From IMG/VR virus record IMGVR_UViG_3300009610_000061, positions 1 through 31,595 of that record: a DNA stretch of 31,595 nucleotides; one strand, given 5' to 3'. A model generated the notes under the pieces. That model made no database searches, was not told the DNA's origin, and saw nothing but the letters and a program-made list of their open reading frames with translations. How positions within the stretch are numbered: the stretch's first letter is position 1; the number at the start of each line of letters is the position of its first letter. The stretch is from a virus. The position numbers and the translations under genes were made by a program. Below are positions 2,434 through 31,274 of this stretch, one piece after another.

Positions 2434-4512
2434 TCAGTCCCCCCGCATAGGTTGGAGCGCAATATGCTTCGTAAGTATCTTACGATCCTTTACGCGGCTC
2501 CATCTATCTGCATTCCTAATCATGTAGTATCGGCTTTGCTTGCCCTCCGGGTTTACCAACGGCCCACCGTTGTAGACTTGTCTGAAGCCTGCGGCCTGTA
2601 GCGCCCTGCTCATACCGTTCGCCGTGACCTTGCCCATTTGACGCTCGTTCTCATTTTCGTACATCGCCAGTATCTCATGGCTGGTGAACAAGTCTCGCTG
2701 ATGGCGTAGCTGGCCCAGCTTGAGATGGGGGGCAGGCGCTTCCTTAAGATCGGCGCACCACATGGCAAGGTCTGACTTGCCCGACATTATCATGCGCTCA
2801 CGCGCGCTCGTGCGTAGGGCCATGGCCTTCGGATTGAAGTCGCTGAGGTCGCGCTCCATCAACCATTGCATCAGGGCGGCAGCGCCTCCATCCTTCTTGA
2901 GCCATTTGTCATAGGCTCGGTAGAACTCGTCGGGCAGGGGAGCGCCCATTACCTCGTGGACAAAGAACCGCCTGTCTTCGTCCTCCAGGAACAACGCGTC
3001 AGCGTGGTTGCTGGTCAGGTAGTAATTCACACAGTCGGGGATGCTGAACTGGGGGATATACTTGATGTTGATGTTGATCTCTTCTTGGGTGATCATCGCT
3101 TTCATCATGTCGGCTTCGGCGCGCTTGTCAGAGCCCGATATTTCGTCGCCAAGCACGAACTGCCTGTTCTCCGCCCACCATGTATCGTACAAGTCCTTGG
3201 ATTTGATTTTGATAAAGTTCTGCCCATAGATACGCGCCAACGTGTATCCAACGAGGGTCTTGCCAGTCCCAGTCATCCGTCCGTACATGATGACGGCCGA
3301 GAACAACTTCGTTCCCGGGAATTGGATCGGGTAGGCGCACCAGTCCAAAAACCATTCCTTGACTCCCTTCTCAGCTCCCTCAAACAGGAAGTCTATCAGC
3401 GCCAGCCACGGCTTGATGTTTCCCTTGGCAGGCTCGCAGCCCCAGCCTTTCCACTGATTAAAGTAGAGAAGGTTCTCCTGCTCGGCAAAGCGCTCCTCGC
3501 CGGGGAGGTAGCTCAGCTTGTCGACAACGCGGCGCATGGGCCACTTCAGCCAGATGGGGGCGGCGCTGGCCTTGCTGACTGCCATGGTGCCGTCAGGCTT
3601 CATCTTACGCTCAGGCACGGATACGGTCGCCCAGTCGCTATGAGCGCCGAACTTGCTACAGTCCATCTTCTGGCCCGTGCGCTGTGCCACGACCATGCCG
3701 GGGTCTCGTATGTAGACGAGCTCGTTGTTCATTTGCCATAAACGCTTGGAGATGCCGAGAGGTTCCGCCCGCTTGAGCAGGGCTATGAGCTCGTCGTCGC
3801 CGCGCTCCACCAGAAAATCATCCAGCCCTGTCTTGCGGTTCTCATCATCGTACACGTTTTCCAGCGTCGCAATGAATACAAGCGCGCCTCGCTCCTGTAG
3901 CTCGTCAGCCAGCGCGTTGATCGCACCGCAGATCATGGGGTTAGTGACATAGTCGCTATCGTAGACAATAGTCACCCTGCGACGCGACCATTCAAAGGCC
4001 TCAAGCTCAGGTAGGAAGAAAATGCCTTGGGCGCTGGCCCGAAAGCTATAGACGCCGCCCAGCCCAATCGTGGGGAAGCCCTCGGCTGTGGCCTTGGTCG
4101 CCTTGAGCTCGCCTTCGGTGATGAGTATCGGCTCCTTGGGGTCGGCTGCTATGGCCGCCCAGTCTGCTAGTCGGGGGAGGTAGGCGCAGACCCCGGTGTC
4201 TCGGGGCTGAGTGTATCTGCTTGGCTTTGCGCCAGCGGCTTCAGCGAAGCCCTTCACCTGCGATTCGCCTAAGTATCGCAGACGGTAGAATTCCGGCCAT
4301 GCCTTGTGAGGGCGTAGCGGGCGGCCTCGCGTATCAAAGTACGGGATGACAAGCGCGGGCTGACTTTCAAAGTGTTCGCCCAGTTGAGCGGCGGTGTTGA
4401 CGCTGTACATTCCGCAAGAGTTCGCCTGCTCGGTTGTTAAACCTGAGGACTCTAGCTTCTGCGTCGCGGCATCGTTGAACGTGCCTGCCTTGATCCTGAC
4501 CACTTTATTCAC
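2434..4512 (-). CDS. Primase-helicase fusion (Toprim-like DUF3854 + DUF5906-type SF3-like helicase)
   Basis: A 692-residue replication protein. The N-terminal part resembles Toprim/DUF3854 modules: ITEGELKATKA (131-141, acidic Toprim motif), GLGGVYSF (150-157), VYDSD (183-187, the DxD position) and TGLDDFL (228-234). The C-terminal half has a P-loop GRMTGTGKT (411-419), a Walker B-like FVLGDEIS (452-459) and YYLTSNHADALFLEDEDRRFF, typical of DUF5906/SF3-like phage helicases. It should unwind the replication fork and perhaps prime it; the catalytic primase core is not obvious. The start is GTG 4512 because GGAAGGG lies six bases upstream; the frame also opens at TTG 4527, which lies inside the SD-masking hairpin. 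It heads the block with the duplicated pair, J-domain and ligase-like genes. Translation is probably controlled by the structure at 4519-4610. Confidence 0.9.
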   Translation of the reverse strand: MNKVVRIKAGTFNDAATQKLESSGLTTEQANSCGMYSVNTAAQLGEHFESQPALVIPYFDTRGRPLRPHKAWPEFYRLRYLGESQVKGFAEAAGAKPSRYTQPRDTGVCAYLPRLADWAAIAADPKEPILITEGELKATKATAEGFPTIGLGGVYSFRASAQGIFFLPELEAFEWSRRRVTIVYDSDYVTNPMICGAINALADELQERGALVFIATLENVYDDENRKTGLDDFLVERGDDELIALLKRAEPLGISKRLWQMNNELVYIRDPGMVVAQRTGQKMDCSKFGAHSDWATVSVPERKMKPDGTMAVSKASAAPIWLKWPMRRVVDKLSYLPGEERFAEQENLLYFNQWKGWGCEPAKGNIKPWLALIDFLFEGAEKGVKEWFLDWCAYPIQFPGTKLFSAVIMYGRMTGTGKTLVGYTLARIYGQNFIKIKSKDLYDTWWAENRQFVLGDEISGSDKRAEADMMKAMITQEEININIKYIPQFSIPDCVNYYLTSNHADALFLEDEDRRFFVHEVMGAPLPDEFYRAYDKWLKKDGGAAALMQWLMERDLSDFNPKAMALRTSARERMIMSGKSDLAMWCADLKEAPAPHLKLGQLRHQRDLFTSHEILAMYENENERQMGKVTANGMSRALQAAGFRQVYNGGPLVNPEGKQSRYYMIRNADRWSRVKDRKILTKHIALQPMRGD

Positions 4513-4518
4513 ATGATA

Positions 4519-4610
4519 CCCTTCCAAGGAGTGTCCACCTAGCGCCGAGTCCTTGGAAGGGCGGGGCGCGCGGGAGGTTCAGACCAACGGCCTTTGCTCG
4601 ACGCTAGGTG
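4519..4610 (-). promoter_or_regulatory. SD-masking hairpin with a competing helix upstream of the primase-helicase
   Basis: Arm A, CCCTTCCAAGGA (4519-4530), is a perfect 12-bp inverted copy of A' (4550-4561). On the minus-strand RNA this stem contains GGAAGGG, the ribosome site of the primase-helicase, so the closed stem blocks translation. Arm B (4536-4549, CACCTAGCG then CGAG) pairs with B' (4597-4610) over 13 of 14 positions. B lies in the loop of A and directly abuts A'. The order A-B-A'-B' means the two helices interlock. A full pseudoknot would need a five-base loop to span a 14-bp stem, so they are more likely alternatives, as in a switch. A nine-codon frame (ATG at 4630, stop at 4606-4604, no clear SD) ends inside B'. 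Confidence 0.65.
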
Positions 4611-12410: not shown

Positions 12411-15401
12411 ATGCCGCCTCTCAAGATCGCGCAGTACCCGAAGAACCAAGATGGCACGCCCATGGATCTCGAGGTTCTGGTTCTTACCGACGCCGCTGGT
12501 CTTAATGGTGCGCGTCTGGAATTTACCCCCGTAGGGCCGGATGGGGCTCCCATCGACGCGAAAGCGGCGGTCGTCGTAGACCCAACTGGCGCGCTCGTGG
12601 TCAACGCGTCGGCGATATCCAACGTCCCTTATGGGCCGGTGTGGGATGGTTCGGGCATGGCGCCGAGCCAGAATACCGTTTACGACAAGATCAACGCGCT
12701 CGAGGCGACGATTTCGGGCGGTGGCATCAATTACAAGGGGACTTGGAACGCATCTACGAATACGCCTGCTATCCCAGCCGCTGCCGTCGGGAATAAAGGG
12801 TGGTATTACAAGGTATCTGTCGCTGGAACGACCTCCATCAACGGAATTAACGACTGGGGCGTTGATGACTGGATCGTTTCCAATGGCGTAACGTGGGATA
12901 AGGTCGACAACAGCGACAAGGTGTCGAGTGTAAACGGCCAGACAGGCGTTGTCACTATCACAAAAGCTGATGTAGGTCTTTCAAACGTCGATAATACGAG
13001 TGATGCGAACAAGCCGATCAGTAACGCGACGCAAACGGCGCTCAACCTCAAGTTGGATGATTCGCAGGCGTCGGCGTTTGGGCTTCAGTGGCTTGGCCAG
13101 ACAGACGCCGCGACGGCCAAGGCGTCCTTGGGGCTCACCAAGGCGGACGTAGGGCTGGATCAGGTCGATAATACGGCTGATATTGACAAACCCGTCAGCA
13201 ACGCGACACAGTTGGCTTTGAACCAGAAGGCAGGCCTCGCTGTCTTTACTCCCAGCACCAACGGCCTCGCTCCCGCTTCTGGCGGAGGTAGCGTGAAGTT
13301 CCTGTGCGCAGATGGCACGTGGAAAGATCCGCTGCTTCTGCTGCCGCAGGCCGGGGTTTCGTCTTTCAACGGTCGTACCGGCGCTGTGGTGCTCACTGGC
13401 GCTGATGTGAACACGGCGCTGGGCTATACGGCGGCAAGTACCGCGCTTGTCAGCACGAGCGCTGCTGGTCTGGCTCCCACTAGGCCGGGAGGTACGGATA
13501 CGTTCTTGCGTGGTGATGGCGCATGGGCTGTTCCAGCGGTTCCGGCGGGCAGCGTGGCATGGGGCGCGATCACTGGCACTTTGTCCAACCAGACCGACCT
13601 CCAGAATGCGCTCAACGCCAAGGCAGCGGCGGTTCATACGCACGTACCCGCAGACATACTGACCGTGCCGACTGCCACGGTGTTCTACCGGAAGACCGCT
13701 GGTACTGGCGCGGCGGAAACCCAGACGCTGGCGACGCTTAAGACGGACTTGGGCCTCACTGGCACCAACAGCGGTGACCAGACTTCGATCGCCGGGATTA
13801 CCGGGACGCTGGCGCAGTTCAACACGGCGTTGACTGACGACAACTTCGCTGGTATAGGCGCGGCGAATACTTTTACCGCTGACCAGACGATTAACAAGGC
13901 CAGCCCGCAATTCACGCTGAACCCAACGAGCGGCGGTAGCGTCGTCGAGTTGATGGGCGCGGCGGGAACGCAGGCGCTCCGGTTGCAAGGTACGACCGGC
14001 ATCGGCTATGTTCGGGCTGATACAGTTTACATCACTAACAAGACTGGCGCTGCGAACTATGGTGTCTTCAGCGCGACCGGCCTCGCCGTTACCGGAACTC
14101 TGTCGGCTACAGGTGCGGTCAGTGGCTCTAATCTCTCCGGAACCAATACCGGGGATCAATCCAGCATCGTCGGTATCACTGGTACTATAGCGCAGTTCAA
14201 TACTGCTTGTTCCGACGCGGATTTCTCCACCGTCGGTCACGTTCACGCCACTTTCACCAGCAGCGTAGCGGGCTTTGTCCCTGCCAGCGGCGGCGGCACG
14301 GCCAATTTCCTCCGTGCTGATGGGACATTCGCAGCGCCTCCGGGTGGCGGCGGACTAACCGACGGCGATAAGGGCGACGTGGTTGTTAGTGGGGGCGGCA
14401 CCGTCCTGACGGTCGAGAGCGTCGGCGGGGCGGCAATCGCCACTGTCTCCGCTCTGTCGAACTATCTGCCGCTGACCGGCGGGACAGTGACCGGCCTATT
14501 GGCGTGCAGCTCGGGCTTTGACTGCACCAACGGCAATATCGTTTCGCAGGCAGCCGCAGGAGGCAATGCCCAATACGACCTGAAAGACGACCTCAATGTG
14601 CGTCAAGGCTTGGTGTTCTGGAACCGTGGTGACGATACAATCAAAATTCGCCGCTATGATGCTGCTGGCACTGCAATTGAGGGCGAACTAACCATTGGCG
14701 CGACCATTGCCACGTTCACCAATACAACCTTGTGGTTGAATACCGACAAAATGTATATGCTGCACAACGGCACCAACGGTTATATCCGGACCGCGCCGAC
14801 CGGCGGCGGCGACCTTTATCTAGGCGCGCAGGGCGCCTCTACTCTTCAACTAATTGCAGGTGGCGCGGCTGCTTTCAGCGGTTCTCTGACAGTAGCTACA
14901 ACGCTAGCTGTCACCGGGGCGATCACGCAGGGTGGTGTGGCGGTTCTCACAGCGGGCTTGGCAACGTCATCCGGCCTGACCATGGCGGCCACCAATCGCT
15001 TCCTTGGTCGCGATACGGCGGGCAGCGGCGCGGTTGAGGAAATCACTGCTACGGCAGCGATGACCATGCTCGGCGCGGCCCCAGATGCTCCGCGTATTGG
15101 CACATCAACGAGCAACGCCACGCTGACCCCGGTCGGCACTAATGACATGACTACCCGTACGACACAGACGGTGGCGCTGACCATCGCTGCGCCGACGGGT
15201 ACGGCTGTAGACGGCTTCGGTCATGTCATACGTATCAAGGCCACCGCCGCCATTGCGACAGTCACTTGGAATGCAATCTATCGCGCTATTGGCGTCACTC
15301 TGCCAACTAGCCTAGTTAATGCCAAGACTACCTACATCGGTATCATCTATAACGCTCTCGATACTAAGTGGGACGTCGTCAGCGTAGCAACGGAGGCTTG
15401 A
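12411..15401 (+). CDS. Tail fibre protein built of repeated modules (996 aa)
   Basis: The ATG at 12411 has AAGGA eight bases upstream. The first ~100 residues would attach to the tail. The shaft is made of recurring phage-fibre modules: SSVNGQTGVVTITKADVGL (about 168-186) with VDNTSDANKPISNATQTALN, repeated at about 243-275 (TKADVGLDQVDNTADIDKPV) and again as SSFNGRTGAVVLTGADV. GLAPASGGGS-FL-ADGTW occurs three times (about 283, 354, 622). GTNSGDQTSIAGITGTLAQF occurs twice (about 452 and 576). These give slender trimeric beta shafts. The end (TPVGTNDMTTRTTQTVALTI ... VVSVATEA) is a likely receptor-binding tip or trimerisation domain. It determines host recognition. It sits between terS and terL, an unusual place. 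Confidence 0.88.
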   Translation: MPPLKIAQYPKNQDGTPMDLEVLVLTDAAGLNGARLEFTPVGPDGAPIDAKAAVVVDPTGALVVNASAISNVPYGPVWDGSGMAPSQNTVYDKINALEATISGGGINYKGTWNASTNTPAIPAAAVGNKGWYYKVSVAGTTSINGINDWGVDDWIVSNGVTWDKVDNSDKVSSVNGQTGVVTITKADVGLSNVDNTSDANKPISNATQTALNLKLDDSQASAFGLQWLGQTDAATAKASLGLTKADVGLDQVDNTADIDKPVSNATQLALNQKAGLAVFTPSTNGLAPASGGGSVKFLCADGTWKDPLLLLPQAGVSSFNGRTGAVVLTGADVNTALGYTAASTALVSTSAAGLAPTRPGGTDTFLRGDGAWAVPAVPAGSVAWGAITGTLSNQTDLQNALNAKAAAVHTHVPADILTVPTATVFYRKTAGTGAAETQTLATLKTDLGLTGTNSGDQTSIAGITGTLAQFNTALTDDNFAGIGAANTFTADQTINKASPQFTLNPTSGGSVVELMGAAGTQALRLQGTTGIGYVRADTVYITNKTGAANYGVFSATGLAVTGTLSATGAVSGSNLSGTNTGDQSSIVGITGTIAQFNTACSDADFSTVGHVHATFTSSVAGFVPASGGGTANFLRADGTFAAPPGGGGLTDGDKGDVVVSGGGTVLTVESVGGAAIATVSALSNYLPLTGGTVTGLLACSSGFDCTNGNIVSQAAAGGNAQYDLKDDLNVRQGLVFWNRGDDTIKIRRYDAAGTAIEGELTIGATIATFTNTTLWLNTDKMYMLHNGTNGYIRTAPTGGGDLYLGAQGASTLQLIAGGAAAFSGSLTVATTLAVTGAITQGGVAVLTAGLATSSGLTMAATNRFLGRDTAGSGAVEEITATAAMTMLGAAPDAPRIGTSTSNATLTPVGTNDMTTRTTQTVALTIAAPTGTAVDGFGHVIRIKATAAIATVTWNAIYRAIGVTLPTSLVNAKTTYIGIIYNALDTKWDVVSVATEA

Positions 15402-16173: not shown

Positions 16174-17823
16174 ATGACAACAGTTAGTCTTGAGGGCATC
16201 AGAGCCATACAGCAGCAGCGGGAGCTCAAGGCTATCGCTGTGAACATTGACGATGAACTCGCCGATGAAATGGCGCTGTGCTATCTCGATCCGTATCGCT
16301 TCGTTCTCGTTGCTTTTGACTGGGGCCGTGGGGAACTTGAAAAGTTCACCGGCCCGGATAAATGGCAGACCGCCCATTTGAAGAGCATACGCGACACGCT
16401 CAACGAAACACGCAACGACGCGGAGCGTATCAATGATCCGCTGTTCTACGCGACAAAGGCAGGACACGGCGTCGGGAAGTCGGCCGACACCGCATGGATC
16501 ATCCTATGGCTCATGTCCACGCGTCCGCACTTCGCCGGGGTGGTCACCGCCAATACCAAGGATCAGCTAACCCGCAAGACTTGGCGCGAACTGGAGGTCT
16601 GGCGGCGACGCTGCATCACGGGTCACTGGTTCAAGTACAACGCGACCAGCCTGCATCATGTCGAATACAAGGATACGTGGCGAACCGACGCCATTCCGTG
16701 GAGCGATCACAATTCGGAAGCCTTCGCCGGTATGCACAACGCTGGACGCGGACAGGCTATTATCTTTGATGAGGCCTCAGGTATTTCAGATAAGATTTGG
16801 GAGGTCGCGGAAGGCGCGATGTCCGACCCCGATGCTTTCTGGTTTGTCTACGGCAACCCCACGAAGAGATCGGGACGTTTCTATGACTGCTGGCACAAGT
16901 TCGCGCGGCGCTGGACGAAATTCACCGTTGATGCTCGCGAAGCTGCAATGGCGAACAAGAAGCGCCTTGCTGAGATCATCGAGGATTGGGGCCTCGACAG
17001 CGACTATGCCCGCGTGCGCGTACTGGGCCAGTTCCCGGAGCAGGACGTCGCTACACTTATTCCAGCGGAGTGGCTTGACAAGGCACTGAACCGCCCGGTC
17101 ATTGGCTGCGACCGCTACCGCCCGATATGGGGCTTGGACGTTGCGCGGTTTGGCGATGACCGCACCGCCCTAGCCAAGCGCCGAAATCGTATGCTGATGG
17201 AGCCTATTGTCTTCTGGCAAGGCTTGAACCTGATGCAGACGGCACAACGAATTCAAGTAATGTGGGAGAACACCGATGTTGATGACAAGCCGAGCGCGAT
17301 CTGTATTGATGCAATCGGGGTCGGCGCTGGCGTGGTTGATCGCCTCAACGAAATGGCCGCTGAGGGTCATTTTGAAGGAACGCAAATCATCGGAATTAAC
17401 GTCAGTGAAGTAGCCGGTATTCACGATAAGTTCTCGCGCCTGCGCGATGAGCTATGGTGGCGTGCTCGTAGCTGGTTTGAAAAGATGGACTGCTCCATGC
17501 TGGTCGACATTGAAAAGCGCCAGATGTGGATACTTGACGAGGGTAACGAAGAATTCTTCGAAGACCCCGAGTACCGCATGTCGCGTAAGTCGCCTATTGT
17601 GGACGAAATGCGAGATATATTGTTTAGTTACCTCCCGAATGGTAAGATCAAGCTGGAGCCCAAGCAGGACACGAAGGAACGCTTGGGTCGTTCACCAGAT
17701 GGCGCGGATGCCTTTGTTCTTACATTCGCTGAGTACGACTCGCTCCTTAATACCGAAGGGGAGCGACGTGATCGTTACGCAAAGCGGGATACTCATTCAA
17801 AAGGGAGTGCATGGGCAGCATGA
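16174..17823 (+). CDS. terL: Terminase large subunit, ATPase-nuclease (549 aa)
   Basis: The start ATG 16174 has AGGGGA three to eight bases upstream and follows the previous stop by seven bases. The ATPase domain shows Walker A AGHGVGKS (96-103) and Walker B AIIFDEAS (195-202), with FVYGNPTKRSGRF (224-236) as the coupling motif region. The RNase H-like nuclease domain shows GLDVARFGDD (320-329, catalytic Asp), ICIDAIGVGAGV (377-388, second acidic site) and SPDGADAFVLTF near 521 (third acidic site). All three metal-binding positions are present, so the enzyme should pump and cut DNA. The ATG/TGA overlap with the portal gene indicates coupled expression. Confidence 0.95.
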   Translation: MTTVSLEGIRAIQQQRELKAIAVNIDDELADEMALCYLDPYRFVLVAFDWGRGELEKFTGPDKWQTAHLKSIRDTLNETRNDAERINDPLFYATKAGHGVGKSADTAWIILWLMSTRPHFAGVVTANTKDQLTRKTWRELEVWRRRCITGHWFKYNATSLHHVEYKDTWRTDAIPWSDHNSEAFAGMHNAGRGQAIIFDEASGISDKIWEVAEGAMSDPDAFWFVYGNPTKRSGRFYDCWHKFARRWTKFTVDAREAAMANKKRLAEIIEDWGLDSDYARVRVLGQFPEQDVATLIPAEWLDKALNRPVIGCDRYRPIWGLDVARFGDDRTALAKRRNRMLMEPIVFWQGLNLMQTAQRIQVMWENTDVDDKPSAICIDAIGVGAGVVDRLNEMAAEGHFEGTQIIGINVSEVAGIHDKFSRLRDELWWRARSWFEKMDCSMLVDIEKRQMWILDEGNEEFFEDPEYRMSRKSPIVDEMRDILFSYLPNGKIKLEPKQDTKERLGRSPDGADAFVLTFAEYDSLLNTEGERRDRYAKRDTHSKGSAWAA

Positions 17824-20087
17824 GCGCTATCGAACAAGCAAGGGATGACGAGTATCCCATCGCCGAGTCCGGGGAACCCTCCGACGACTTTGAATTCCGT
17901 CGCCTGAAAAGGGATATCAAGGATGGGCAACGCGCGCGGAGTAAGTGGCGCTCGGAAGCCAAGCGGGCATTCGCGTTTGTTGCCAGCGATCAATGGAGCG
18001 AGGAAGATAAGCGTGTCCTTGATGACCAGCAGCGCCCTAGTATCACGTTCAACCGTGTCGCCCCCATTCTTAACGCTGTGTGCGGACTGGAGGTCAACAA
18101 CCGGCAGACTGTTGTGTATTCCCCGCGTGAACAAGGTGACGTTGGTATAAACGAGATGATCACCTCCACCGGCAAGTGGATACGTGATGAATGCCATGCG
18201 GAGGACGAGGAAAGCGAATCATTCCGCGACATGGCTATTTGCGGCGAGGGTTGGACTGAAACCCGCATGGACTTCGACGAAGACCCGCGCGGCGTAGTGG
18301 TTGAGGAGCGGATCAATCCGCTGGAGATGGGCGTCAACCGCGGCGCTGGTCGAAAGAACTACATTGACGCTCGCATGGTGTATCGCATTCGCCAGATGGA
18401 CCCGGATGACGTACGGGCGTTGCTAGAGCTGGACGAAGAGCTTAACGACGCCGCCATTGATGCCAAGTGGCTAGATGAGGAAATTACCCCGGAAGACGGC
18501 GGTACAGGCGAGAAGAAGGATTACCCTGAGAAAACTCGCGAATTCGTGGAGGGTGCGCGCCGGGGCAAGCTGAAAACCGTCACCGTCGTACAGTGCCAGT
18601 ATTGGAAGCGCGAGCCGGTCAACATGGTGGCAACGCCTACTGATCAGGCCGTGCAGGAAATGACGGATGACGAATTCGCCGCGTTCAAGGCGCGAGCTGA
18701 GGCAGTAGGCGCGGCGGGCAGGCCAATTGAGTTCGAGCACGCGCGCGTGACGAAGAAGGTGTACTACGAATGCTTCATCGGCAACCAGATTTTGCATACG
18801 CGCAAGATCGAGATGGGCATGTTCCAGTTCCGGGCCATGACCGCCTACCGCGATCACGAGAAGAAGTGTTTCTACGGCATGGTGCGTGATATGTTCGATC
18901 CGCAGATGTGGGCGAACAAGTGGCTCAGTCAGACGATGCACATTATGAACACGAACGCGAAGGGTGGACTGCTAGCTGAGACCGACGCGTTCCAGAACGT
19001 GCGAAAGGCCGAGCGTGATTGGAGCAACCCCACGAAGATCGTCTGGGTAAAGCCCGGAGCTCTGCAGAAGAACAAGGTCAAGGAGCGGACGCCGGGGCAG
19101 TTACCGGCAGGACTTGACGGGCTGATGATGTTTGCCATTAGCAGCATCCGGGACGTTACTGGCGTGAACCTGGAATTGCTGGGGCAGGCTGACCGGGAGC
19201 AGGCCGCCAGCTTGGAAGCGCAGCGTCGTCAGAGCGCTATGACAGTCTTGGCAGCAATGTTTGACAGCCTGCGGCGCTACCGCAAGCTCCAAGGCAAGTT
19301 GATGCTCCAGTTCATCTGGTTGCTTCCCGAGGGTACGCTCGTACGCGTGGTCGAAAAGGGCCAGATCAAATATATCCCGCTGATGAAGGAAGGTAAGAGT
19401 GTAGAGAAGTTCGATGTTGTCATCGATCAGGCTCCTACTTCGCCCGACCAGAAGCAATTCATCTGGGCCATCACCGGACAAATTCTGCAAATGGGTATTC
19501 TTCCGCCGCAGGCAGCCGTGGAACTCCTCAAGTATTCCCCATATCCGGAAAGCGTGGTGGAGGAGATCAAGAAGTCCATGGGTATGGGTGCTGAATTGCC
19601 GCCGGAACAGCTTCAGGAGAAACTGAAGCAAGCCGAGGGCGCGTTGCAGATGCTTGAGCAAGAGCTGAACAAAGCCATGGAGGCTGCCAAGACTGCCGAA
19701 GATGACCGCGCGGTGGAGATGCTCAAGCTGGAGATCGACGAGTATCGCGCCGCAACCGAACGCCTCAAGGAACAGTGGGCGGCAAAGATAGATGTCGGTA
19801 GCATGATTGCTGACGGCACCCGCGCTGAAGCTGCTGTCCTCGGTGCGGAGGTCAAGGCCCGCCAGCCCGTAGCAGGCGCGGTTAGTCCTAGAGATGCGGC
19901 ACAGGAACTCCCCGATATTGGTGGCGGAGCTCCCGGCCCCGGCATTGGACAGGGCGCTGATCTAAGCGGCCTCACACAGAAAGTTGATCAGCTTGCAGGA
20001 ATGATAGGGCAGCTTCTGCAAGGACTACAGCCTCAGCAGCAGGAGCCATTACCTCCTCCGTCTGAGCCCATTGCCCCGCTTGAATAG
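17811..20087 (+). CDS. Portal protein, P22 type (758 aa)
   Basis: The start lies inside the end of terL; ATG 17811 has AAGG six bases upstream and a second ATG at 17820 overlaps the terL stop (ATGA). Residues 28-120 carry the family signature (FRRLKRDIKDGQRARSKWR; DQQRPSITFNRVAPILNAVCGLEVNNRQ), followed by a long wing and core with ICGEGWTETRMDFDEDP. About 590-665 is a coiled-coil-forming Glu/Lys/Gln stretch (EKLKQAEGALQMLEQELNKA), then a Gly/Pro/Gln-rich tail. The length of 758 is in the range of P22-like portals (about 725). Twelve copies form the DNA channel at the capsid vertex and bind terminase and adaptor. Confidence 0.93.
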   Translation: MGSMSAIEQARDDEYPIAESGEPSDDFEFRRLKRDIKDGQRARSKWRSEAKRAFAFVASDQWSEEDKRVLDDQQRPSITFNRVAPILNAVCGLEVNNRQTVVYSPREQGDVGINEMITSTGKWIRDECHAEDEESESFRDMAICGEGWTETRMDFDEDPRGVVVEERINPLEMGVNRGAGRKNYIDARMVYRIRQMDPDDVRALLELDEELNDAAIDAKWLDEEITPEDGGTGEKKDYPEKTREFVEGARRGKLKTVTVVQCQYWKREPVNMVATPTDQAVQEMTDDEFAAFKARAEAVGAAGRPIEFEHARVTKKVYYECFIGNQILHTRKIEMGMFQFRAMTAYRDHEKKCFYGMVRDMFDPQMWANKWLSQTMHIMNTNAKGGLLAETDAFQNVRKAERDWSNPTKIVWVKPGALQKNKVKERTPGQLPAGLDGLMMFAISSIRDVTGVNLELLGQADREQAASLEAQRRQSAMTVLAAMFDSLRRYRKLQGKLMLQFIWLLPEGTLVRVVEKGQIKYIPLMKEGKSVEKFDVVIDQAPTSPDQKQFIWAITGQILQMGILPPQAAVELLKYSPYPESVVEEIKKSMGMGAELPPEQLQEKLKQAEGALQMLEQELNKAMEAAKTAEDDRAVEMLKLEIDEYRAATERLKEQWAAKIDVGSMIADGTRAEAAVLGAEVKARQPVAGAVSPRDAAQELPDIGGGAPGPGIGQGADLSGLTQKVDQLAGMIGQLLQGLQPQQQEPLPPPSEPIAPLE

Positions 20088-21342: not shown

Positions 21343-22437
21343 ATGGCTATGACCGAATATGGCCCCAATCATCCGCTTGCGGTGAAATTGTGGGCAAAGC
21401 GTCTCTTTATCGAAAGTCTGAGAGAGACGTTCATCGATCGGTTCATCGGTACGTCCGACAAGAACTCGATCATCCAAATGCGCGACGAACTCAAGAAGTC
21501 GGCCGGCGACAAAGTCACCTTCGGCCTGCGTCTGCAGTTGGTCGGCGCTGGTACGGCTGGCGACAATACGCTGGAAGGCAACGAAGAGGCACTCAGCACC
21601 TTCGCCGACTCCATCATCATCGACCAGCTTCGTCACGCGGTACGCAGCAAGGGCAAGATGTCCGAGCAGCGCGTGCCGTTCAGCGTTCGTCAGGAGTCAA
21701 TGGACGGCCTGAAGGATTGGTGGGCTGACCGGCTCGATGTCTGGTTCTTCAATCAGGCGGCGGGGTTCACGGCACAGGGCGATGTCCGTTATACGGGGAT
21801 GCAGCCGGTGCTGGCACCGGACGGCAACCACATCTTTCGGCCGAACAGCAAAACGACTGACGAGTCACTGACTGCCGGTGACGAGTTCAGCTTGGCACAC
21901 ATCGATCGCATGATTGCGCGTGCCAAGACGTTCGCTTCGGCGGGCGGTTCTGGCCCCGTCCCCATTCGGCCGGTGCGGTACAAAGGTGGTGACTACTACG
22001 TCCTGTTCATCCACCCGTACCAGACCTTCTCGCTTCGCTCCAACTACAACGCGGGCGCGTGGGCCGATCTCCAGAAGTCCAAGCTCATCGCGACGGGTAG
22101 CGAGGATAACCCCATCTTCCAGGGTGGGTCGTTCCTCGGTATCTACAACGGCGTGGTTATCCACGAGTCGTCACGTGTCACCAATGGTGTTCACAGCACG
22201 ACTGGCGCCGCTGTCGCCAATGCTCGCCGCGCTGTGATGTGCGGAGCGCAGGCTGTCGTCATGGCTACTGGCCGCGACGAGGCTGGGCCGGAGAAGATGA
22301 ATTGGGTCGAAGAGCTGTTTGACTACAACAATCAGCTCGGCGTTGCGGCAGGCATGATCGCCGGCCTCAAGAAGACGCAGTTCAACAATCTGGACTACGG
22401 CACGATCGTCTTCTCCACCTATGCGCCGCAGCCGTAA
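21343..22437 (+). CDS. Major capsid protein, N4-gp56 family (364 aa)
   Basis: The ATG at 21343 has AAGG about nine bases upstream. The sequence has the family features: N-arm MTEYGPNHPLAVKLWAKRL, then GDKVTFGLRLQLVG (55-68), the helix with RQESMDGLKDWWADRLD and DVWFFN, and WVEELFDYNNQLGVAAGMIAGLKKTQFN near the C-terminus. These recur in N4-gp56-type HK97-fold coat proteins of many podoviruses. The length is typical (about 350-400). It is the main shell protein. The adjacent scaffold and the small gene downstream support the assignment. No proteolytic N-terminal delta domain is evident, fitting a separate scaffold. Confidence 0.93.
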   Translation: MAMTEYGPNHPLAVKLWAKRLFIESLRETFIDRFIGTSDKNSIIQMRDELKKSAGDKVTFGLRLQLVGAGTAGDNTLEGNEEALSTFADSIIIDQLRHAVRSKGKMSEQRVPFSVRQESMDGLKDWWADRLDVWFFNQAAGFTAQGDVRYTGMQPVLAPDGNHIFRPNSKTTDESLTAGDEFSLAHIDRMIARAKTFASAGGSGPVPIRPVRYKGGDYYVLFIHPYQTFSLRSNYNAGAWADLQKSKLIATGSEDNPIFQGGSFLGIYNGVVIHESSRVTNGVHSTTGAAVANARRAVMCGAQAVVMATGRDEAGPEKMNWVEELFDYNNQLGVAAGMIAGLKKTQFNNLDYGTIVFSTYAPQP

Positions 22438-23430: not shown

Positions 23431-24048
23431 GTGGCTACGTTTAATGAAACCATCACACGTATCGCGACCGAGCTTCGGCGCTCCAATCTGACTGAGGATA
23501 TTAAATTCGCCATTAACGACGCTATCAAGGAAGCGGCCCAATCTCGCTTCTGGTTTAACGAGATGCTGGTGAACTTCCCACTCGTTGCCAACACAGAGTC
23601 CTACCCTGACATCAATACTCTCGTCACTATTGACGCGGTCTACTATAACGTCGGCAGCACGCGCTACAATGTAGACCCTATGAATTTCCTTGATCTTCAA
23701 GATCGCGCAAATGGCAACGCTCAGTATGGGTTGCCAGATTTCTATTCGCGGTACGAAGGGAAGATCTACCTCGACCCCATTCCTAGCGTCGCTGGTACGC
23801 TGTATCTACGCGGCCACGGCCAGCTTGATCCGTTCCCATTCGTTGGCAATGATGATACGAACCCATGGCTCAACGAGGGCGAGCTCTACATTCGCGCGCT
23901 GGCAAAGCGCAACTTGCTCCGCGATGTCATACGCGATTATGGCGAGGCGCGGGCCATGGAAGCTATTTCCGAAGATTACAAGCAGCAGCTAGAAAATGCG
24001 ACGGCTGAAAAGTCAAGCACTGGCGAGATTAGGAGCACCCAGTTTTGA
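23431..24048 (+). CDS. Head-to-tail adaptor protein (205 aa)
   Basis: GTG 23431 is the start, with AAGGAGG seven bases upstream. Residues 5-45 form the N-terminal helices (TITRIATELRRSNLTEDIKFAINDAIKEAAQ) with RFWFNE. A beta region follows (FPLVANTESYPD; TLVTIDAVYYNVGSTRY), then RYEGKIYLDPIPSVAGTLYLRGHG. The C-terminal helices are rich in Arg/Glu (LAKRNLLRDVIRDYGEARAM). This layout is that of podovirus adaptor or tail accessory proteins of the SU10-adaptor/P22-gp4 functional class, which bridge portal and tail hub. It ends in a TTGA overlap with the next gene. Confidence 0.8.
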   Translation: MATFNETITRIATELRRSNLTEDIKFAINDAIKEAAQSRFWFNEMLVNFPLVANTESYPDINTLVTIDAVYYNVGSTRYNVDPMNFLDLQDRANGNAQYGLPDFYSRYEGKIYLDPIPSVAGTLYLRGHGQLDPFPFVGNDDTNPWLNEGELYIRALAKRNLLRDVIRDYGEARAMEAISEDYKQQLENATAEKSSTGEIRSTQF

Positions 24049-25562
24049 CCGCCCTTGTCCAACTTGCTGATATCGTCGTTGATGACGTTGAACGGACTGA
24101 CGTTCCGTTTGGCGAATGGCTGCCTGATCTCCCGGAGTTGAACAATCCCGGCGCGGTGGAGGCTCTCAATGTCCTACCCATTGAGGGCGGCTACAGTCCG
24201 TTTCCCAGTCTCTCGACCAGCACGGTTCTGCCGGAGGTAGTGCGCGGCGCTACGTCGGTCATATCACCTGCCGACATTACTCAAATCTACGCGGGTACGA
24301 TTGCCGGTATCTACACGAAGTTCGGTGGCGGCGGCTTCACCAAGTTGATCTCCAAGAACAGCAATATCATAAACTCGTGGAAGTTCATACGAGTAAATGA
24401 GCAGATGGTCATGATCCATCCCGAGCATGATCCTATGCGTTCGCCTGTCGCGACCACTACTCCCCCGGTCGTACTGGGCGGCACCCCGCCGCGCGCTGCT
24501 TGCGGCGCACAGGTCGGCGACTTCTTATTCCTCGGTGACCTGCTTATCGATCCGGACGATAGCGGCGGACGTTTTCCAAGTCGTATCCGCTGGAGCGGCT
24601 TCAACAACATCGACATGCCGTGGATCAGTGATCCCATCACACAGGCTGATTTTCAAGACATGCCAGCGGAAGGCGGGCCAATCGTAGCGATAGCTGGCCG
24701 AGAACATGGCACCATCTTCCAAGCGCGTATGATCAGCCGTGCCACCTATCGCGGCCCGCCTACCATCTTTGATATCGCTACTCTGGAGGACAAGCGCGGC
24801 GCTATTGCCCGCGACTGCGTTGTTGATATTGGCCCGCTTCAGTATTTCATTGCTGAGGACGGGTTCTTTTACTGGAACGGTACGAACTCCGTCCCCATTG
24901 GGGATAGCCGCGTTAATCGCTACTTCTTCAACAAGCTCCAGTACAGCTTCCGCAATCGCATTGTCGGCGCGGCTGACTTTGTCAATGGCTGCGTACACTG
25001 GGCCTTCCCGACCGGCTCATCGGGCGAGCTGGATGAAATCATCACCTACTCCTATCGCGAGAACCGCTTCGCTCATACGCAGATACCACTGGAATATCTG
25101 TTCAGCAGCGCCGTGTCCAACATATCGGCGGAAGAGCTGACCAACCCGGCCGAAAGCTACACTGTCAGCTTCGACAGCCCTCAGTACCGCGCGGGCGGGC
25201 GTATGCGGCTGGCGGCCTTTGACACGGCTCACACCTATGGCCTCTTCGTTGGACCTAACATGGCAGCCGCTATTGATACCAGCGAGTTCACTGGGCCGGA
25301 CGGCAGGCGTGTCTTCATCAATCATGCGCGCCCATTGGTGGACATCAACGCTCCGGTCGCGCAGATGCGCGTACTTAAACGTGACCAGCTTATCGGAGGG
25401 CCTCTTGAGCTGGGCAATGCCATATGGCAGGAAGCTGACGGAACATTCTCCATTTTCGGCGATGCTCGCTACATGCGGTTCCGGGTTATCATTCCAGCCG
25501 GTGCGGCGTGGACACATGGGAATGGTGTACAGATTTCTCGCAAAGCAACGGGAGTATTCTGA
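24045..25562 (+). CDS. Tail hub protein, P22 gp10-like (505 aa)
   Basis: TTG 24045 is the start, its last two bases overlapping the adaptor stop; translational coupling explains the weak start. The product is almost entirely beta: many strand-turn repeats such as SRIRWSGFNNIDMPW (about 185-199), GREHGTIFQARMISRATYRG (about 221-240) and PLQYFIAEDGFFYWNGTN (about 263-280), as in beta-propeller tail hub/needle-knob stabilising proteins. FNNIDMPW and GPLQYFIAEDGFFYWNG are recognisable from phage 'tail hub/stabilisation' proteins. It should form the short tail tube below the adaptor. It ends with a TGATG overlap with the next start. Confidence 0.75.
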   Translation: MTALVQLADIVVDDVERTDVPFGEWLPDLPELNNPGAVEALNVLPIEGGYSPFPSLSTSTVLPEVVRGATSVISPADITQIYAGTIAGIYTKFGGGGFTKLISKNSNIINSWKFIRVNEQMVMIHPEHDPMRSPVATTTPPVVLGGTPPRAACGAQVGDFLFLGDLLIDPDDSGGRFPSRIRWSGFNNIDMPWISDPITQADFQDMPAEGGPIVAIAGREHGTIFQARMISRATYRGPPTIFDIATLEDKRGAIARDCVVDIGPLQYFIAEDGFFYWNGTNSVPIGDSRVNRYFFNKLQYSFRNRIVGAADFVNGCVHWAFPTGSSGELDEIITYSYRENRFAHTQIPLEYLFSSAVSNISAEELTNPAESYTVSFDSPQYRAGGRMRLAAFDTAHTYGLFVGPNMAAAIDTSEFTGPDGRRVFINHARPLVDINAPVAQMRVLKRDQLIGGPLELGNAIWQEADGTFSIFGDARYMRFRVIIPAGAAWTHGNGVQISRKATGVF

Positions 25563-27815: not shown

Positions 27816-28565
27816 ATGGCCGAAGGTACTATTATCAAGATGCAAGATGGAAGTCTACGCATCCAGACGAATGGGGAGTGGGCTCCCTATACAGGTGTCG
27901 ATCCAGCGAAGCCCAAGAAAGCGGGTATGAGCAAAGAGGATCGCCAGCGGCTGAACACCATGGGCGAAGACGCAGCGGCAGCCAAGGAAGTCGGCTCTTT
28001 GTACGATCGCGCTGAAAAGGCTTTGGCGGACATTCGTCCCGGCCCATATCGCAATAGTCTCCTGCTCAGCCCTGCTATTCCAGAAGAGGAAGGCGGCTGG
28101 GCTGACAGGGCCAGCGCGGCGACCTTTGGCGGCGTAGCGCGCGGCATCGGTGCGGTGACTCCGAAGGAAACGTCAGCGTATCAAACGGCCCGCGCTATCC
28201 AGAACGCGGCGGTGCTGGAGCGCCAGCTTCTCCAGAAAGGCGTACAGACCAATACTGATGCACAGCGCATGATGCTTGCTGACATCTCCCCTAACAAGGA
28301 TATGAAAGCGAACATGGAGATCATCAACGCTGGCCGCGATCAAATTCGTCGGCGGCAGGCCAAAGCGGCTTTCTATACGAAGTTTGCGAATAACTGGGGA
28401 CTCAATGGCGTGAGCCCAGACGGCTTCACGGCTGACGAGCTCTGGGCCAAGAGCAGCGACTATATCACCAAGAAGCTCATGGGTGACGGGAAGAAGCCGC
28501 CTCCTACCCCGGCTCCCAAAGGTCCAAAGATCACTGTTATCTCACGTACACCAAAGGCGCGATAA
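27816..28565 (+). CDS. Internal virion protein candidate (249 aa)
   Basis: The ATG at 27816 has AGGTG about six bases upstream. The N-terminus reads MAEGTIIKMQDGSLRIQTNGEW, a recurring beta-hairpin start. The rest is helical: EDAAAAKEVGSLYDRAEKALADI (about 50-72), FGGVARGIGAVTPKETSAYQTARAIQNAAVLERQLLQKGVQTNTDAQRMMLA (about 104-155). ISPNKDMKANMEIINAGRDQIRRRQAKAAFYTKFA is also typical of podovirus ejection proteins. A Pro/Lys-rich C-terminus ends it. It leads directly into the 902-residue protein. Confidence 0.72.
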   Translation: MAEGTIIKMQDGSLRIQTNGEWAPYTGVDPAKPKKAGMSKEDRQRLNTMGEDAAAAKEVGSLYDRAEKALADIRPGPYRNSLLLSPAIPEEEGGWADRASAATFGGVARGIGAVTPKETSAYQTARAIQNAAVLERQLLQKGVQTNTDAQRMMLADISPNKDMKANMEIINAGRDQIRRRQAKAAFYTKFANNWGLNGVSPDGFTADELWAKSSDYITKKLMGDGKKPPPTPAPKGPKITVISRTPKAR

Positions 28566-31274
28566 ATGGCACAGGTACGTTACAAAATTGACACCGGTGA
28601 TGAGATCATCGAGTTCGAGGCCGAGGAAGGTCTCACCGATGCACAGATCACGACGATGGCGGATGACATTATCGCTAATGCTCAGCCGGGGGTGACGTAC
28701 GAACCTTCCATCATGGATCGACCAACGAGCGAAGTGAATATCGCAGGCGAGGCTGGACAGGATCAGGAGCCTCAGCTAGAAAGCAGCGCGGGCGGTACGT
28801 TCCTTCGCGCCTTGCCCAAGGAAGCCACGTTTAATCTTGCTGATGAATTCTCGGCACGCGCCAACGCACTGATCCCCGGTGCAGCGGCACTGGATAACTG
28901 GCTTGGCATGACCAATAACCAGAAGAGTGTTTGGGGTGACGAAGGTCTCAACTACGACCAAGTCGTTGCGGGCAACATGGCTGATACCAGCGCTCAGGCT
29001 CGGGCTGACGCCGAGCAGCATCCTTACATGGACGCCGCAGGCCGGATCACTGGTGTCTTGTCTACATGGCCTCGTGCTGTCGGCGCAGCAGTTCCTCGGT
29101 TCACGCAAGCCCTCCCACGGGTGGCTGAGACCATCGGCGCATTTGCTAAGAGCCACCCCATTCTCACGGGCATGGGCGCGGGCGGCGTCACCGGCGCTGC
29201 CGGGGGCTTTGGCGCTGGTGAAGGTGATACGCGCGGTCAGTCGGCTGCTATTGGCGGCTTGGCTGGCACGTTCTTCGGCGGCCTTACATCGGGAGCGATG
29301 CAACTAGCTCCCCATGTCGCTCACTATTGGAATATCCTCAAGAACAAAATGCCAGAGGAAGCGGCTGTCAAGCAGATCATCAAGGCGTTGAAGCGTGACG
29401 GCTTTGATATCGTCAGCCCTTCTGGTGTTCAGAAGCTGAAGGACGTCCTACAGTCCTTTACTGGCAAGCCTGTCAGCTTGGCTGATATTGGCGGCGCAAC
29501 GCGCGCTCGCACGGGTCACGCTCTACGTGCGCCCAGCGAAGCCCAGCAACCTGCCATCGAAGCTCTGCAACGACGCACTAGCGGGCAGGGCGGTCGCATA
29601 ATGCAAGACGTACGCGGCAACGTGGCCCCGCGTACTGATGTTCACGCGCTTGATGAAGAGCTGGTTGCTGAGCGAGAAGAGGCAGCCAAGATCGGTCGGG
29701 AGCGAGCGTTGTTTGAAGATGCGCCAACTCCGTTGCCTCCTCCGAAGTCGCAAGTTGTCCCAACCGGCCAAGTTGCTGAGGAAGCACCGAACGCGGGCCT
29801 GATGCGCCAGATGGGCCAGGAAACACCGGACAATCCTACGTTTATTCGCGAAACGGGACCGGATACGCTGTACAGAGGCGGCGCTCCTCACGATCCTAAT
29901 TTCCAAGGGCCGTCGTTCTTCACGCCAGATCGTGCAGCCGCTGAGACTTACGCTTCTGAGCATACCATGCGCTTCGGTACTCCCGGCTCGGTTCACGAAG
30001 CTAATGTCGCTATTCAGAACCCTGCTCCTCTAGAGATAATTCAGCAAGAAGCGAAGCGTCTCGGTATAGATACTAATCTTACTCCAGCTAGTATGTTTGA
30101 CCAAGCTGTGCAAGGAGGAGACGTTAATGCGCTAGTTGCTGCTTTGAAGAAGAGAGGATTTGACGGTGCTATCCTAGACGACATTCCTATGGGCGGAAGT
30201 GGCCCTCCTATGAAGGCTCATATTCCCTTTGATATGGGGCAAGTAAAAGCGGGCGGCATGGGTCGCCAAAGCCGCATGGTTTACGATCCGCAGCTTGATT
30301 GGCTGGCGCGGCTCCCACTCGCGCAGAAAGCGCTGACCAAGGCGCTTGATCTTGCTGAGTCAGAGCGAGCTCGTCTGGCAGCCTTGGGGCAGTCTATTGA
30401 TCACCTTCCCGACCTTACTCGGGGCGGTAGCCTAGATATGCGGACGTATGACTACCTCAAGCGTTATCTTGATCAGGAAGTCACCCGCGCTTTCCGTGGG
30501 CAGTCTGACACTTTCACGATGGCGCAGGCCAGCGAGGTGAAGGCAATTCGTGATTCGCTCCGTGAACGCCTGAAAGAAGTCGTGCCAGAATATGGGGATT
30601 ACCTCAGGAGATATGGTGACGAAAGTGAAATGATCAAGTCGCTGGAAGAAGGTCGTAAGTACACAGAATTGGACCCCGAGCAGATTGTAGCGGGCCAAGC
30701 CAAGCGTTCCGAAGCTGGGCAGGAGTTCTACCGCGTCGGCGCTGCCCGCGATATGCAAGATTCTCTTCGCAGCACAAGAGGCAACGCCTATCCGGCTAAC
30801 CGCATCATGAACGACGATATTGCGAATGATCAGGTAAAAGCTCTTGGCTTGACAGACCCCGAATTCGCCAACCTCAATCGTTCTGTAACGCAGGAGCGCC
30901 AGCTCAATCTACTGAGCGACGAGCTACGCGGCTCAGGTACTCAGCAGCGCCTAGCCGCTGCGGAAGATGCAGACGCTGGCGCTAACATGGCCCTCCCATT
31001 CAACGTGGGAAGCCCGACCGGCTGGTTCGGTGCCGGGGTGCGTAATCTGACACAGCGCGCCAGTGTCAATCGTAACGCGGCGGTCAACGAGCAGATTTTG
31101 CCGCGCCTAACATTCACTGATCCGAACTCCATCGATACCGTGATCAACGAGCTAGTAGCTCAGGGCAGGGTTGCTGAGGCAGCGGCTTTGAAGCGACAGG
31201 CTCAGGAACGCGCGATAGCGGGCGTCGGCGGCGTTCACATCGGTGGCATGGTGGCACTCCCGGGAGAACAGTAA
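28566..31274 (+). CDS. Large ejection-type protein carrying an inserted ADP-ribosyltransferase-like domain (902 aa)
   Basis: The ATG at 28566 directly follows the previous stop (TAAATG) with AAAGG eight bases upstream. Residues 1-60 form a small N-terminal domain. Residues about 197-245 are a Gly/Ala zipper (GMGAGGVTGAAGGFGAGEG) suited to membrane insertion. A helical body runs on both sides of an island at about 430-555. The island reads LYRGG (435-439), GPSFFTPDRAAAETYA (448-463), then a strand and helices, and RGFDGAILDD (530-539). That is the ordered pattern of ART-type domains of phage polyvalent proteins: a beta strand with Y-R-G, an S/F-F-T-x-D-x-x-x-A-x-x-Y-A helix entry and an acidic G-x-D-G-hh strand. 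Bases 30001-30240 are about 47 % GC against 62-65 % in blocks on either side, so the domain looks acquired. The helical rest (YLKRYLDQEVTRAFRGQ; EYGDYLRRYGDESEMI) is that of podovirus ejection proteins. ART activity is inferred. Confidence 0.82.
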   Translation: MAQVRYKIDTGDEIIEFEAEEGLTDAQITTMADDIIANAQPGVTYEPSIMDRPTSEVNIAGEAGQDQEPQLESSAGGTFLRALPKEATFNLADEFSARANALIPGAAALDNWLGMTNNQKSVWGDEGLNYDQVVAGNMADTSAQARADAEQHPYMDAAGRITGVLSTWPRAVGAAVPRFTQALPRVAETIGAFAKSHPILTGMGAGGVTGAAGGFGAGEGDTRGQSAAIGGLAGTFFGGLTSGAMQLAPHVAHYWNILKNKMPEEAAVKQIIKALKRDGFDIVSPSGVQKLKDVLQSFTGKPVSLADIGGATRARTGHALRAPSEAQQPAIEALQRRTSGQGGRIMQDVRGNVAPRTDVHALDEELVAEREEAAKIGRERALFEDAPTPLPPPKSQVVPTGQVAEEAPNAGLMRQMGQETPDNPTFIRETGPDTLYRGGAPHDPNFQGPSFFTPDRAAAETYASEHTMRFGTPGSVHEANVAIQNPAPLEIIQQEAKRLGIDTNLTPASMFDQAVQGGDVNALVAALKKRGFDGAILDDIPMGGSGPPMKAHIPFDMGQVKAGGMGRQSRMVYDPQLDWLARLPLAQKALTKALDLAESERARLAALGQSIDHLPDLTRGGSLDMRTYDYLKRYLDQEVTRAFRGQSDTFTMAQASEVKAIRDSLRERLKEVVPEYGDYLRRYGDESEMIKSLEEGRKYTELDPEQIVAGQAKRSEAGQEFYRVGAARDMQDSLRSTRGNAYPANRIMNDDIANDQVKALGLTDPEFANLNRSVTQERQLNLLSDELRGSGTQQRLAAAEDADAGANMALPFNVGSPTGWFGAGVRNLTQRASVNRNAAVNEQILPRLTFTDPNSIDTVINELVAQGRVAEAAALKRQAQERAIAGVGGVHIGGMVALPGEQ

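Follow-up and report, generated by a model that had tools for sequence, protein, structure and literature searches.

Can the ejection protein of a short-tailed phage gain an enzyme-type domain, and what would such a domain do once it is injected? The question is raised by a virus record of 31,595 nt (hereafter the window, meaning the whole stretch of DNA that was analysed), which carries a P22-like structural module; the final large gene of this module (28566–31274, on the plus strand like all module genes given here) encodes a protein of 902 aa. The sequence-only reading of this DNA had proposed an ejection protein interrupted by an ADP-ribosyltransferase (ART)-like domain, acquired late and delivered with the genome, an interpretation which as a whole is partly supported by our results. 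The module contains a P22-type portal protein (17811–20087; PF16510, E=1.6e-91), a major capsid protein (21343–22437; phrog_334, E=6.4e-92), a tail adaptor protein (23431–24048; PF24175 SU10_adaptor, E=3.1e-14) and a nozzle protein (24045–25562; phrog_3287, E=9e-49), the latter a short-tail module marker that aligns with proteins of Paracoccus, Microcystis and Rhizobium podophages. Directly upstream of the 902-aa gene, an ORF of 249 aa (27816–28565) has no family match in Pfam or PHROG; judged by its position alone, after the nozzle gene and before the last structural gene, it is a probable partner ejection protein. The locus is not an assembly accident of one record, because a second contig (L001) is identical to the window across 9,030 bases and reaches 4.6 kb beyond it.

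Other genes of the phage deserve mention in their own right. A tail or fibre protein of 996 aa (12411–15401), which matches many PHROG tail families, sits upstream of the terminase gene and not after the ejection genes, and a 697-aa protein with DUF3854 and DUF5906 (2434–4527, minus strand) is likely a replication primase-helicase. Just right of the window end, L001 carries a thymidylate synthase-like gene adjoining a gene for the helical domain of a 5-hmdU DNA kinase (L001:10538-11740 and L001:11731-12567; HMUDK_hel, E 1.1e-34), a pair which suggests that the DNA of this phage contains a hypermodified thymine.

What kind of protein carries the domain? Its gene belongs to the PHROG 5880 family (E=2.8e-26), which is listed as of unknown function: both halves of its body match the family profile, and the gene lies near the end of a portal-capsid-adaptor-nozzle module. 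Microcystis phage Mae-JY35 has a 655-aa protein of the same family (E=3.5e-152) in its structural cluster. Taken together, gene order and PHROG 5880 membership make the 902-aa protein a probable ejection protein. Comparing profiles of the body family and of a Rhizobium phage "injection protein" revealed no relation between the two. As a separate observation, Mae-JY35 also encodes a Macro-domain (ADP-ribose-binding) protein between its nozzle and ejection genes (L004:10033-10590).

Homologues delimit the insertion. Related phages were fetched through alignment of the nozzle protein, and the homologues of the 902-aa protein that they encode were gathered into a first body profile (18 sequences, the window left out), later widened with further homologues found in whole genomes. 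Against the 18-homologue profile, the window protein aligns in two blocks, residues 72–382 (profile positions 76–357) and 572–899 (profile positions 362–669), with a total E of 3.5e-60, and the 189 residues in between (383–571, 29712–30278) fall between adjoining profile positions. The N-terminal half of the body thus comprises residues 1–382 (28566–29711), with a Gly/Ala-rich segment at about residues 203–245, and the C-terminal half comprises residues 572–902 (30279–31274). In the widened profile, the span of positions 335–440 is occupied by 66–125 residues in the 24 homologues that cover both halves, versus 291 in the window, whose extra residues are placed at profile position 357. The closest relative found with the gene, a 40-kb contig (L198) with a coat protein 77% identical to that of the window, makes the same point directly: its homologue of 722 aa aligns to window residues 73–384 (35% identity) and 573–898 (47%), and between the aligned halves stand 25 aa in L198 and 188 in the window. 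At the level of sequence, residues 383–571 are an insertion in an otherwise continuous protein family. The proposal that a domain interrupts a longer body is thereby upheld, and the refuting outcome named with it, a segment constant among homologues and of normal composition, did not appear (24 homologues lack it); the extent first given to the domain was too small. The insert begins with a Pro-rich linker (383 to about 430), followed by the ART domain and a short C-terminal linker. No target-site duplication is evident in a DNA alignment of the left junction.

Base composition agrees with a late gain, depending on how it is measured. Plain GC values cited in the sequence-only reading are correct (47.1% for 30001–30240, 61.7% for 29521–29580 and 65% for 30301–30360), and the whole ART stretch, at 52.2% versus a mean of 57.7%, shows a modest dip that lies at the 3rd percentile of equal windows, with dips nearly as deep in core genes at about 17.2–17.4 kb and 23.4–23.5 kb. 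Third codon positions are more telling: GC3 of the ART part is 44.1% versus 65.5 +/- 7.6%, the lowest of any equal stretch across the structural genes, and the ten lowest-GC3 stretches of 456 nt in all structural genes are all within or overlapping the insert. The absence of the insert from L198 and its outlying GC3 both fit a late gain, as had been suggested from the sequence alone, and we consider the lineage-specific acquisition of an ART by this probable ejection protein to be real.

Is the inserted domain an ART? We conclude that it is. The motifs picked out in the initial reading are present and in order inside the 902-aa protein, LYRGG at residues 435–439 (29868–29882), GPSFFTPDR at 448–456 (29907–29933) and GFDGAILDD at 531–539 (30156–30182), and they fall on the core strands of an ART, with LYRGG as strand 1 (R437), FFT as strand 2 (F451-T453), GFDG as strand 5 (D533) and HIPF..GQVK as strand 6. 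The core (residues 435–561, 29868–30248) resembles the ART-PolyVal family: Pfam PF18760 matches the insert at E 1.2e-4 to 3.8e-4 (21.7–23.3 bits, under the curated cut-off of 31.2), and a nine-sequence ART-PolyVal profile, gathered without the window's motif, matches it at E=4.5e-8 (Z=20000). Using hhalign, the domain aligned to 15 other ART-PolyVal members with a P of 95.6 and E=1.3e-8, a comparison that is less independent since the window's motif had led to about half of the rows. Written as a degenerate DNA pattern, that motif, FFTPDRAAAETYA, retrieved 34 viral contigs (L128-L161), most of them with clear ART domains by eye, the ART-PolyVal-like domains lying in ORFs of up to 4326 aa; PF18760 matches 18 of the 19 ART domains aligned, the window included and the others found via the pattern. 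Searches of phages, plasmids and viral contigs turned up no close homologue of this ART, and tblastn with the whole protein or the ART alone against phage and plasmid records returned no real ART relative. Matches of this kind to Rhizobium "internal virion protein" genes were rejected as due to chance, having no Pfam match. Running PF18760 over the related phages gave no match, a weak negative given that the same loose search also missed the window itself.

Structure points the same way. A single-sequence AF2 model of the ART was discarded (pLDDT 51.5), and a model built with the alignment of 19 domains reached a pLDDT of 81.7 and a pTM of 0.74. The best VIA-align match of this model comes from the cyanophage A4 pre-ejectosome (chain 9k3a_B; 120 residues at Z 8.0), followed by tankyrase, PARP and ParT at Z 6.3–6.8, all listed rows below the first being known ARTs; Z values of 6–8 can reflect a common arrangement and would be weak if taken alone. 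Among viral models (BFVD), 32 match at E<=1e-3, several of them named ART-PolyVal. Foldseek of the model against the PDB gave no E below 0.69, and by sequence the ART profiles matched no homologous chain at a significant level among solved chains. An ART fold is therefore supported, in the model as far as it can be trusted, by Pfam, profile comparison and fold searches, which agree with one another just as the sequence-only reading had anticipated; the other refuting outcome that it had named, a structural match to a non-ART fold, was not seen.

Whether the domain is an active enzyme is less clear. The active site of ART-PolyVal proteins consists of H in strand 1, Y in strand 2 and D in strand 5 (Iyer et al. 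2017, PMC5512222). In the window, the strand-1 H is replaced by R437 (LYRGG), the strand-2 Y is, by alignment, replaced by F451 (SFFT), and the strand-5 D is kept as D533 (GFDG), in a column that is invariant in the 15-row ART set and whose match to the published D is assigned by strand order. Neither does the site conform to the R-S-E type: R437 is present, but FFT replaces the S motif and there is no E in the strand after GFDG. Activity is thus uncertain because only the D of H-Y-D remains; by sequence, the active site appears unusual and not plainly dead, and catalysis may be lost or altered. We had considered a lost catalytic Glu in the last core strand as decisive evidence; this was dropped, the position being variable among clear members and the GFDG Asp constant.

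On balance, and with some reserve, we favour the following explanation. The product of the 902-aa gene would be an ejection (pilot) protein of a short-tailed, P22-like phage. Comparison with relatives shows that in the window lineage a short inter-helical linker of this protein was replaced by an ART-PolyVal domain with flexible linkers. To judge from gene order, the protein would be loaded into the head and leave it together with the DNA, and the ART would then lie exposed on the host side of the ejection channel. There, early in infection, it would draw on NAD+ to modify a host macromolecule, the action proposed for polyvalent proteins and demonstrated for T4 Alt.

The strongest competitor, which we nevertheless regard as rather unlikely, is that the domain, though folded as an ART, has no catalytic activity and instead plays a binding or structural part in the ejection machine, for example by binding ADP-ribose or NAD or by packing in the pre-ejectosome. 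The replacement of H by R and of Y by F speaks for it, as does the absence of an acid in the last core strand (AHIPF in the window versus E-Y-V-V-F in other members, the position being variable in these as well); moreover, the model's best structural counterpart, an ART-like region, belongs to a solved pre-ejectosome and may be structural there. Against it, the strand-5 D is retained; R is found at the strand-1 position in L134 and L150, the former a 1059-aa viral ORF with an otherwise typical ART, and the strand-2 position is occupied by F or W in several other ART-PolyVal members; and the 24 homologues without the insert do not need a purely structural one. It is improbable, in our view, that the domain works within the producing cell, or on the phage's own proteins as virions are assembled, rather than at entry. 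The gene is late by position, as such a role would have it, but the domain is embedded inside the structural body and would be packaged, and its packaged parallels (T4 Alt, the polyvalent proteins) are held to act after injection (PMC5512222). That the segment is a regular, invariable portion of the ejection protein and resembles ARTs by chance, as the sub-threshold Pfam match might allow, can be dismissed as highly improbable given the homologues that lack it, L198 among them, and the concordance of several profile and fold tests.

Returning to the favoured explanation, in which an active ART is carried into the host, why would the ejection protein accept a domain at this position? The hinge between the halves may tolerate insertion, since at least one homologue has a different domain there. 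In an alphaproteobacterial relative (L190), the homologue of 846 aa (L190:1139-3676), whose halves match at 2e-25 and 9e-24, has about 147 extra residues at profile position 357, the same as in the window. This insert of roughly 150 aa matches no family clearly and, on visual inspection, is not an ART; its candidacy as a BECR-type nuclease found no support. Two long homologues, L188:295-3729 (1145 aa) and L189:783-4151 (1123 aa), 64% identical to each other, contain a "SLARYIAxRGGI" domain with a relative (35%) in the 1069-aa phage ORF L192. Their C-terminal-half match is weak (E 8e-5 for L189 and 1e-3 for L188, with the wider profile and complete genes; for L098/L189, the C-terminal half of L098 is not significant with the first profile) and a forced full-length alignment leaves the insert unplaced, so that a third kind of insert near the hinge is probable in these proteins as far as the alignments go. 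In some 28 homologues, a small sample, two or three kinds of insert point to a tolerant hinge. It is possible, if on present balance doubtful, that the hinge is a general cargo-acceptor site into which phages splice various effector domains, the channel protein doubling as a modular effector vehicle. Should this be so, short-tailed phages would have in their ejection proteins a natural chassis for effector delivery, and scanning this junction would be a simple route to new injected effectors.

It is established that injected phage proteins can carry ARTs; the architecture described here and the existence of a with/without pair are new as far as a limited literature and the databases show. The window and L198 form such a pair, related phages between which an ejection protein has gained an enzyme-type domain, and therefore the effect of the cargo on ejection, packaging and infection can be tested. 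Comparison with known systems reveals a number of likenesses and differences: (i), the window shares with ART-PolyVal (PF18760) the fold, the order of motifs (Y[H/R]G, [FY]FT...A..YA, NP, G[YF]DG, VF.P.QIKS) and the embedding in a larger phage protein whose injection is predicted (PMC5512222), and differs in the H to R and Y to F changes and the score under the Pfam cut-off; it sits in a mid-size ejection protein with a single insert and not in a giant multi-domain protein, and Pfam, PHROG and NCBIfam recognise one inserted domain only in the 902 aa, polyvalent proteins having several unrelated effector domains; (ii), the cyanophage A4 pre-ejectosome (9k3a chain B, residues 1418–1601), a phage ejection complex by its entry title, provides the best fold match, at 15% identity, with no sequence-level match and in a much larger chain; (iii), the PHROG 5880 protein of Mae-JY35 shares the body on both sides of the insert and has no ART. 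T4 Alt, to which the domain had been likened, resembles it in the logic of delivery, being an ART that is packaged in the virion and injected with the DNA (PMC5512222), and there the analogy holds; it fails for the ART clade, since Iyer et al. separate the R-S-E clade of Alt from the H-Y-D ART-PolyVal family of polyvalent proteins (PMC5512222), into which the window's ART appears to fall, and Alt is a separate protein, with no insertion in an ejection protein. A further parallel is the N4-like virion RNA polymerase of Roseovarius Plymouth podovirus 1, also podoviral, predicted to be injected and carrying an ART from this family (PMC5512222); there the ART is fused to RNA polymerase modules, whereas in the window it is set into a P22-like ejection-protein body.
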